Below, one piece after another: positions 235-1,720 of a stretch of DNA of 21,076 bases. The first letter of the stretch is position 1. Every line of letters begins with the position of its first letter. This stretch comes from a virus. The stretch lies in IMG/VR virus record IMGVR_UViG_3300013126_000298, positions 1-21,076 of that record. One strand, given 5' to 3'. The notes below the pieces were generated by a model. That model did not search any database. It was not told the DNA's origin and was given only the letters and a program-made list of their open reading frames with translations. The position numbers and the translations under genes were made by a program.

Positions 235-1499
235 AGATCGCTAACCTGTTGGATGCGCTTGCCGATCCACGCCATGACAGGCACCGCCATGCTATTGCCA
301 AGCGCCTTGTAGCGCGGGCCGTCTAGGCTTTCTGCGGCCTTGCGCCAAGGGATGTTGGTGTAGCCATCAGGGAAGCCTTGGAGGCGCTCGCACTCCACGG
401 GCGTGAGGCGGCGCACTTGCATGGCTTGTATCGCTACACCCTCTACAGGCGTCCCATTAGATCGCCCACCGCTACCCGGGTTTGCTCGGAGCGTTCCAGC
501 GGTCTGATCAGATGCCACCGACTGCATGATCGTAGCGTGAGCGGCATTGTCACGTGCAAGGGTGTGGCAAGGATCGCCCGGTTGTCGTGACTGACGATTC
601 ACGGGGGCAGTAATCTGGAAAAAGTCATATGGGATTGGTTGGGCAACGCCATGACTGTGACCCTTCGTTCGCGTGTAACTAGGGCCGCCCGGTTGGAAAT
701 CACCAAATGAATGATGATCACCGCGACCTAAATGATTCATTGTGTCAATTGGGATTGGCTGGGCGACGGCAATAATTTGCGCGTCTTGCGTTGTGCCGGT
801 TGCAGCTTCCATGCGTTTAATTAAACATGGAGCAATATCTTCATCGCCCATTGTTTGCACTACAGGCAAGGTTTCTGTGGTTGGGTCGTAACGCTTTCCA
901 ACGCCTGCCGTAAGGCATTGGGCAGCTCCTTCCCGCGCCTCTCTGCTCGGCGCAAGATGCCCTTGCAGGCTGTGGGACTCAAAAAGTACCGCTGCGGCAC
1001 GTTGCCAGCTTCTAGCGTTTGCGACAACGAACACACGACGCCGTCGCTGGGCCACTCCGAAGTATTGAGCGTCAAGAACCCGGTAGGCGAACCCATACCC
1101 GAGTTCTGCCAACATTCCGAGGAAGGTTCCAAAGTCCCGTCCTCCGTTAGACGACAAGACACCGAAGACGTTCTCCCATACCAACCACTCGGGGCGATAT
1201 CGGCGAGCAATTGCGCCGTAGGTGAGCATGAGGTTGCCACGCGGGTCAGCCAGTCCTTTTCGCAGTCCTGCGACGCTGAATGACTGGCAAGGGGTTCCTC
1301 CGACCAAAAGTTCAATTGATTCATTCGGCCATTCCTCAAACTTGGTCATGTCCCCGTAATTGGGAACGTGTGGGTAGTGGTGCTTCAGCACGGCGCACGG
1401 GAACGGTTCGATCTCGCTATACCATGCCGCCTCCCATCCAAGGGGATGCCAAGCCACGGTCGCGGCTTCTATCCCCGAGCAAACGCTGCCGTAACGCAC
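231..1499 (-). CDS. C5-cytosine DNA methyltransferase (Dcm-type), solitary
   Basis: This enzyme transfers a methyl group from S-adenosylmethionine to C5 of cytosine in a short DNA target; in phages it usually protects the genome against host restriction. All the key motifs are present in 422 residues: the AdoMet-binding start (GSVCSGIEA, residues 4-12), the catalytic PCQ with nucleophile Cys71, ENV at 109-111, QRRRR at 151-155, a variable target-recognition region at roughly 190-355, motif IX (TPVECERLQGFP), and GNS at 401-403. The start is GTG at 1499, two bases after the stop of the upstream HTH gene, with AAGG in GAGAAGGGC as ribosome site. No cognate restriction endonuclease is visible. 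The target region carries a repeated VAQPIP segment. A second ORF is nested in its first half in the +1 frame. Target sequence cannot be predicted. Confidence 0.95.
   Translation of the reverse strand: MRYGSVCSGIEAATVAWHPLGWEAAWYSEIEPFPCAVLKHHYPHVPNYGDMTKFEEWPNESIELLVGGTPCQSFSVAGLRKGLADPRGNLMLTYGAIARRYRPEWLVWENVFGVLSSNGGRDFGTFLGMLAELGYGFAYRVLDAQYFGVAQRRRRVFVVANARSWQRAAAVLFESHSLQGHLAPSREAREGAAQCLTAGVGKRYDPTTETLPVVQTMGDEDIAPCLIKRMEAATGTTQDAQIIAVAQPIPIDTMNHLGRGDHHSFGDFQPGGPSYTRTKGHSHGVAQPIPYDFFQITAPVNRQSRQPGDPCHTLARDNAAHATIMQSVASDQTAGTLRANPGSGGRSNGTPVEGVAIQAMQVRRLTPVECERLQGFPDGYTNIPWRKAAESLDGPRYKALGNSMAVPVMAWIGKRIQQVSDL
631..770. repeat. 20-bp direct repeat pair inside methyltransferase target region
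   Basis: Positions 631-650 and 751-770 match at 17 of 20 bases (GGGATTGG-y-TGGGC-r-ACG core) and lie exactly 120 bases, or 40 codons, apart. In the methyltransferase frame both encode the segment VAQPIP. The flanking 30 bases do not match, so this is a short repeat rather than a full 120-base duplication. Confidence 0.6.
860..1324 (-). CDS. Overlapping ORF nested in methyltransferase gene, unknown product
   Basis: A 154-codon ORF lies wholly inside the methyltransferase gene on the same strand, in the +1 frame over methyltransferase residues 59-213. It has an ATG at 1324 preceded by TGAGGA with 8 bases of spacing, a better ribosome site than that of the host gene. The product starts MNQLNFWSEEPLAS, has a Ser/Thr/Cys-rich middle, and ends with a segment that looks like folded, helical protein (PQRYFLSPTACKGILRRAER then RGKELP). 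From memory, similar proteins with the PRYFLS-x-x-A-C-x-GILRRAE-x-RGK signature appear widely in phage and prophage annotations, often on top of cytosine methyltransferase genes; I cannot verify this here. Such conservation could reflect a real dual-coding gene or merely a shadow of the conserved methyltransferase. Function unknown. Confidence 0.45.
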   Translation of the reverse strand: MNQLNFWSEEPLASHSASQDCEKDWLTRVATSCSPTAQLLADIAPSGWYGRTSSVSCRLTEDGTLEPSSECWQNSGMGSPTGFLTLNTSEWPSDGVVCSLSQTLEAGNVPQRYFLSPTACKGILRRAERRGKELPNALRQALESVTTQPQKPCL

Positions 1500-1501
1500 C
1501 G

Positions 1502-1720
1502 TCAGCCCTTCTCAGCCCATCGACGGGCAGCCGCTATCTGCAACTGCTTGCGTCTCTGGCGCTCCTCTGCGGGGCTCTGGTTGCGCTCAAACTGCAGCAC
1601 CCGCAGCTCTGGCACCTTGCCGGTCTTTGACCAGCGATTCACCGATGCGCGGCTGATGTTGTAGACCCGAGCAATCTCGGCCTGTGATCCATACACGGTC
1701 AGTAGTTCGTCAAATGTCAT
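1502..1720 (-). CDS. Cro/YdaS-like helix-turn-helix transcription regulator
   Basis: This 72-residue protein is probably a Cro-type DNA-binding regulator. The helix-turn-helix is clear at about residues 11-32: GSQAEIARVYNISRASVNRW has the classic pattern with Ala in the second helix, a turn, and a recognition helix ending in Trp, followed by KTGKVP and a basic tail. Size and layout match the Cro/YdaS group. The ATG at 1720 has a very strong ribosome site, AGGAGG about 7 bases upstream. The methyltransferase gene starts two bases after its stop, so they form one leftward transcript. It faces the rightward recombination block across a 119-base regulatory gap, the usual position of a phage switch regulator. 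Its operators are probably the inverted repeats there. A control protein for the methyltransferase is the alternative reading. Confidence 0.8.
   Translation of the reverse strand: MTFDELLTVYGSQAEIARVYNISRASVNRWSKTGKVPELRVLQFERNQSPAEERQRRKQLQIAAARRWAEKG

Follow-up and report, generated by a model that had tools for sequence, protein, structure and literature searches.

A virus record of IMG/VR (IMGVR_UViG_3300013126_000298; the window, that is, the whole analysed stretch of 21,076 nucleotides) carries a gene for a C5 cytosine DNA methyltransferase (MTase) within which a second reading frame, in +1 on the same strand, stays open for 154 codons. Does this frame encode a protein and, if so, what would a small protein do from inside the gene of a conserved enzyme? 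Comparison of homologous sequences strongly supports same-strand dual coding of the shared DNA, because +1 stops are depleted, synonymous constraint has sharp borders, a start codon and a ribosome site are conserved, and a second family replicates the pattern. As to function, I consider it fairly probable that the nested product is a small subunit supplying in trans the hinge and the beginning of the target recognition domain (TRD), both proteins being needed for sequence-specific methylation.

The locus and its two frames

The features of the locus are collected in Table 1. The ATG-started frame of 154 codons in +1, preceded eight bases upstream by TGAGGA and covering MTase codons 59-213, had been pointed out in an earlier note on this DNA and is confirmed in the sequence.

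Table 1. Positions of the MTase gene, the nested gene and their parts in the window
Feature	Position	Strand	Details and basis
C5 cytosine DNA MTase, frame 0	231-1499	minus (1499→231)	422 aa, GTG start
Nested +1-frame gene	860-1324	minus (1324→860)	154 aa + stop; ATG 1324-1322, stop 862-860; proposed small, beta-like subunit
Shine-Dalgarno-like TGAGGA	1333-1338	minus	8 bases before nested ATG; window sequence
Conserved helical module at the nested C-terminus (residues 98-150)	875-1033	minus	Alignments, AlphaFold2
Hinge-like segment CSLSQTLEAGNVPQRYFLSPTACKGIL, putative homologue of the hinge/TRD-start that canonical C5 MTases have in frame 0	953-1033	minus	HMM matches, profile comparison
MTase codons 161-190, +1 conserved equal to or above the enzyme frame	930-1019	minus	4-fold difference 0.05-0.12

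Frame 0 matches PF00145 (E 3.9e-52), and its residues 3-160 and 361-416 align with M.HhaI, the elements PCQ, ENV, QRRRR, RRLTP..C.RLQGFP and GNSMAVPV included; the structural match between the two enzymes has a Z of 23.9 and an rmsd of 2.2 over 215 residues. Motif IX lies in frame 0, at residues 361-377. The frame-0 TRD region (residues 183-345) has no confident predicted fold, and a hypervariable alignment may be the sole cause of its low pLDDT. A small gene for a Cro/YdaS-like helix-turn-helix protein (window 1502-1720) immediately precedes the MTase on this strand, with a 2-base gap between its end and the GTG.

Selection on the nested frame

When the codons of the window gene alone are shuffled synonymously, a +1 frame open over codons 59-212 has P=0.0037, and a +1 run of 154 codons or more anywhere in the gene has P=0.034; by itself the window is therefore only suggestive, and this modest P of 0.0037 is what speaks for a chance open frame, or for an RNA or DNA signal that constrains the sequence without encoding a protein. 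So that open +1 frames would not be favoured, MTase homologues were gathered through frame 0 alone, and the null for stops was synonymous codon shuffling of each gene set. Codons 61-185 of 61 distinct MTase genes hold a single +1 stop against 225.6±11.6 expected, a depletion far beyond chance, which the earlier note had proposed as the yardstick. In the same genes the +2 frame within the overlap equals the null (335 stops vs 319 expected), and outside the overlap the +1 frame shows no depletion, either in the N-terminal region (185 vs 172 expected) or in the C-terminal one (153 vs 127). Eighty genome loci likewise contain one +1 stop, with 187.9±10.8 expected. Canonical MTases (Dcm, chromosomal enzymes and the Staphylococcus-phage type) have 116 +1 stops vs 126.2±5.6, and not one of the 19 tested has an open +1 frame; the other 17 of the 36 canonical loci were dropped from this test because a simple motif search missed the gene.

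Across 99 disjoint gene pairs, 4-fold sites differ by 0.45-0.56 in codons 2-58 and 360-420 vs 0.05-0.35 in codons 59-190, so that synonymous change is depressed within the overlap relative to its flanks, as would be anticipated if the earlier note was right. The difference returns to 0.53 at codon 191 and is at least 0.53 just beyond codon 190. Amino-acid identity in +1 amounts to 0.68-0.91, where 0.33-0.35 would be expected with free synonymous sites, and in codons 181-189 it reaches 0.91 in +1 vs 0.70 in frame 0. Within codons 181-190 change is fastest at the first codon position (0.34 vs 0.09 and 0.08), where the +1 frame has its wobble position.

The same holds for a second family. The +1 frames of 73 Firmicutes-phage MTases, again selected on frame 0, contain 36 stops vs 497.6±14.2 expected, 68 of the 73 genes are stop-free in +1 across codons 50-190, and the 4-fold difference is 0.06-0.40 inside the overlap vs 0.55-0.61 outside it. 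A single gene, L344, accounts for 31 of the 36 stops, and the others are confined to the extreme end of the ORF. This gene (L344:1501-3147) has a long in-frame insertion before motif VIII, which is open in the enzyme frame and brings 31 stops into the nested one. Homology between the nested proteins of both families (hhalign 99.7%) extends to the stretch beyond motif VIII where their enzyme frames differ. The depletion of stops, the phase-1-fastest pattern in codons 181-190, and the recurrence of the signal in two families alike in +1 but not in frame 0 all stand against a chance frame or a signal without protein, the probability of which is negligible. The evidence of selection demonstrates that the nested frame has a function, but not which function.

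The signals for initiation are conserved as well. A start codon is found at frame-0 codons 58-60 in 60 of the 61 homologues, where shuffling gives 26.8, and a Shine-Dalgarno-like site in 56 of them, where shuffling gives 12.8; the ribosome site described for the window is thus kept, together with the start, far above chance. In the Firmicutes family a Shine-Dalgarno-like site precedes 38 of 44 nested starts, and the nested start of MM1p15 of Streptococcus phage MM1 is preceded by AAAGGAG. Independent internal initiation is therefore preferred over programmed frameshifting into +1, which would fuse the catalytic half of the MTase to a +1 tail. An arrangement of the latter kind is seen in Faecalibacterium phage FP_Toutatis (L258:1587-3007), where the catalytic half and the +1 module share one frame and the C-half has an ORF to itself. 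As the frame changes close to a G-rich stretch that codes for glycine, slippage, an indel or a sequencing error could each account for this, and the arrangement could be an artefact. Since, in addition, selection on +1 begins sharply at the nested start (codon 59) and spans its whole length, frameshifting appears very improbable.

A hinge segment in the nested protein

In the AlphaFold2 model of the nested protein, residues 1-95 are mostly of low confidence; helices are predicted at 100-106, 117-130 and 136-147, and blocks with mean pLDDT of 89-97 extend over residues ~111-150, so that the claim of a folded, helical C-terminus holds by this model. Family searches in Pfam, NCBIfam and PADLOC gave no match and the sequences of solved structures no useful one. 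Fold searches with the model returned nothing convincing (Foldseek best E 2.9; VIA-align best Z 3.5, to a sigma factor domain 2), and no known fold is thus claimed or excluded for the protein.

The pattern of the nested C-terminal module is 'LSDILE..V..KYFLS', and canonical C5 MTases have 'L.DILE..V..KYYLS' in their own frame, where it joins the catalytic domain to the TRD. The HMM of the Firmicutes nested proteins matches the frame-0 segment behind motif VIII of canonical C5 MTases, such as 'RLVDVLESEVDEKYYLSEEKTKKL' (L262, E 4e-11) and others. In a sample of 38 control MTases, the HMM of the Firmicutes C-terminal module matches 12 canonical enzymes at E<0.05, some 30-60 residues past motif VIII, and none of 38 reversed control sequences; the window-type module HMM matches four of the 38 (best 3.5e-4) and no reversed sequence. 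In the other direction, an HMM of canonical hinges only matches frame 0 of the overlapped MTases in 0 of 287 cases and the +1 frame of Firmicutes-type genes in 67 of 75 (E<0.05); among genes of the window's own type it matches three only, at E<1. The results of both searches thus indicate that the large protein lacks the segment joining catalytic domain and TRD and that the nested protein has it. As judged from these profiles, homology to the hinge is strong for the Firmicutes type and weaker for the window's type, whose nested protein is paired with the canonical hinge by hhalign at 56% probability and whose case depends in part on its nested protein being clearly homologous to that of the Firmicutes type.

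Since its C-terminal module is homologous to the canonical hinge, the nested protein looks like an MTase subunit. On this view a methyltransferase operon of two frames would be packed into a single piece of DNA: frame 0 would give a C5 MTase with all catalytic motifs and without the 'L.DILE..V..KYYLS' segment, and the +1 frame a protein of ~150 aa, translated from its own start codon and Shine-Dalgarno site within the same mRNA, the folded C-terminal end of which would be the missing hinge segment extended by helices. I infer that the small protein would associate physically with the MTase, docking on it as a beta subunit that gives the hinge and TRD-start in trans and is needed for activity, and that the resulting methylation presumably protects phage DNA from host restriction. 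The two-polypeptide C5 MTases M.AquI and M.EcoHK31I provide precedents for such a subunit, and the lack of a confident fold in the frame-0 TRD region agrees with it; the different placement of motif IX in M.EcoHK31I (see below) counts against it.

The earlier note had guessed at an anti-restriction or regulatory role, and an independent protein of this kind might share DNA with the MTase and act without binding it. The variable N-terminal half would suit such a protein, as would the extra helical tail (GILRRAEKRGK.LP..L..AL) of the proteobacterial type; the lack of a Pfam, NCBIfam or PADLOC family would suit it too, while lending the guess no support. It is however unlikely, for the C-terminal module is homologous to a C5-MTase segment that is absent from frame 0, and at none of 343 loci with a match does the nested protein occur apart from such an MTase; the stand-alone copies that the earlier note had thought of are therefore not borne out. 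Less probable still is a decoy or regulator, whose borrowed hinge would dock on its own or on host MTases and limit or redirect rather than complete them. The same homology of module and hinge is compatible with it, and nested coding would fix its ratio to the enzyme, but the overlapped enzymes have no hinge of their own to compete with (0 of 287, as above). A subunit that completes the enzyme is thus the reading retained here.

Distribution and relation to known systems

By tblastn, the nested protein finds 134 phage records, including P1 dmt, mycobacteriophages and Roseobacter, Vibrio and gut phages, and the second form (Lactococcus phage query) finds 224, of which 151 are of Streptococcus. 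The earlier note's statement that the same signature occurs in many phages was therefore right, and both frames are kept by hundreds of unrelated phages. The C-terminal consensus hits 531 plasmid records, mostly Escherichia and non-mobilizable, annotated as in P1, and a search with the conserved stretch gives 551 loci in GTDB genomes; at all 167 loci examined the match sits in +1 inside the MTase ORF. The earlier note also had such proteins annotated on top of, or instead of, the MTase frame: annotation on top of it does exist but is occasional (MM1p15; P0095 gp51), and gp104 of mycobacteriophage Thibault is a remnant of the +1 frame. On a broader scale it is conceivable, at somewhat less than an even chance, that obligate two-subunit MTases are widespread (P1 dmt, mycobacteriophages, Vibrio phages, gut phages, streptococcal prophages), their ancestral hinge/TRD-start having left the enzyme frame and survived within the catalytic gene as an overprinted subunit.

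The nested protein of the window matches phrog_16143 (E 3.1e-7), as do 87 of 90 aligned relatives, and P0095 gp51, an annotated nested ORF of an S. thermophilus phage, fits it end to end (2.1e-86). This family is labelled 'DNA methyltransferase', yet it represents the other, nested frame. Another family with the same label, phrog_1008 (a 329-position profile), matches 11 of the 90 nested proteins, a hint that some of its members may be annotated in the nested frame.

Nested MTase ORFs are already known from MM1 and from S. thermophilus phages, as is a two-polypeptide MTase, M.EcoHK31I; what is new is the breadth (P1 dmt, Vibrio, Mycobacterium and gut phages), the proof of selection and the link between hinge and module. 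In MM1 (MM1p14/MM1p15) the small ORF lies wholly in +1 inside a C5 MTase, as in the window, and MM1p15 is homologous to the window nested protein (BLASTP 6e-11; window-type HMM 1.1e-26); however, the streptococcal protein is without the C-terminal helical extension, and the enzyme frame of the MM1 type is another subfamily. The total overlap in S. thermophilus phages of the 5093 group has been termed striking (PMC5601072), and that paper cites the same overlap in a pneumococcal phage and in transposon Tn5252; the selection analysis, module homology and wider distribution given here are not among its contents. Searches of the open-access literature turned up nothing on this overlap in proteobacterial phages or in P1 dmt, on selection acting in both frames, or on a relation between the module and the canonical hinge.

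M.EcoHK31I likewise has its small subunit encoded within the MTase gene in an alternative frame. This C5 MTase (YGGCCR) needs two polypeptides in vitro, according to a 1995 title cited in PMC3404938. By description, which is how the two systems were compared, the small subunit of M.EcoHK31I carries motif IX, whereas in the window motif IX was found in the large protein and not in the small one, which has the hinge segment. M.AquI is a natural two-subunit C5 MTase split in the variable region beyond motif VIII (PMC3404938); its subunits divide the domains end to end, and a nested frame is not described there. Split M.HhaI needs the region that corresponds to the hinge/TRD-start on its C-terminal fragment (PMC3439449). 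A hidden HNH endonuclease of the ShiLan type (PMC11855218) is also encoded in a second frame inside a methylase gene of a phage, namely a mycobacteriophage, but it is a homing endonuclease in an inserted element, whereas the window overlap is the conserved catalytic core. No HNH match was found in the window nested protein, and the overlap spans conserved MTase motifs without an insertion. In mycobacteriophages Thibault and Schatzie (L251:1341-2862 and L250:1345-2868), an HNH-carrying insert right behind motif VIII breaks both frames, gp104 of the former being the annotated +1 remnant beyond it.

If the two-subunit reading is true, a large share of phage C5 MTases, that of the textbook phage P1 included, would be annotated without their second protein, and codon optimisation for expression of the MTase frame would destroy the nested one. 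The locus would then likewise offer a clear-cut example, open to experiment, of part of an enzyme that moved to an overlapping frame, with both products under selection. Citrobacter phage Omnitron (L249:2207-2716) keeps the nested hinge motif and an intact MTase and has the C-terminal helices swapped for unrelated sequence, a variant that amounts to a natural test of the role of these helices.
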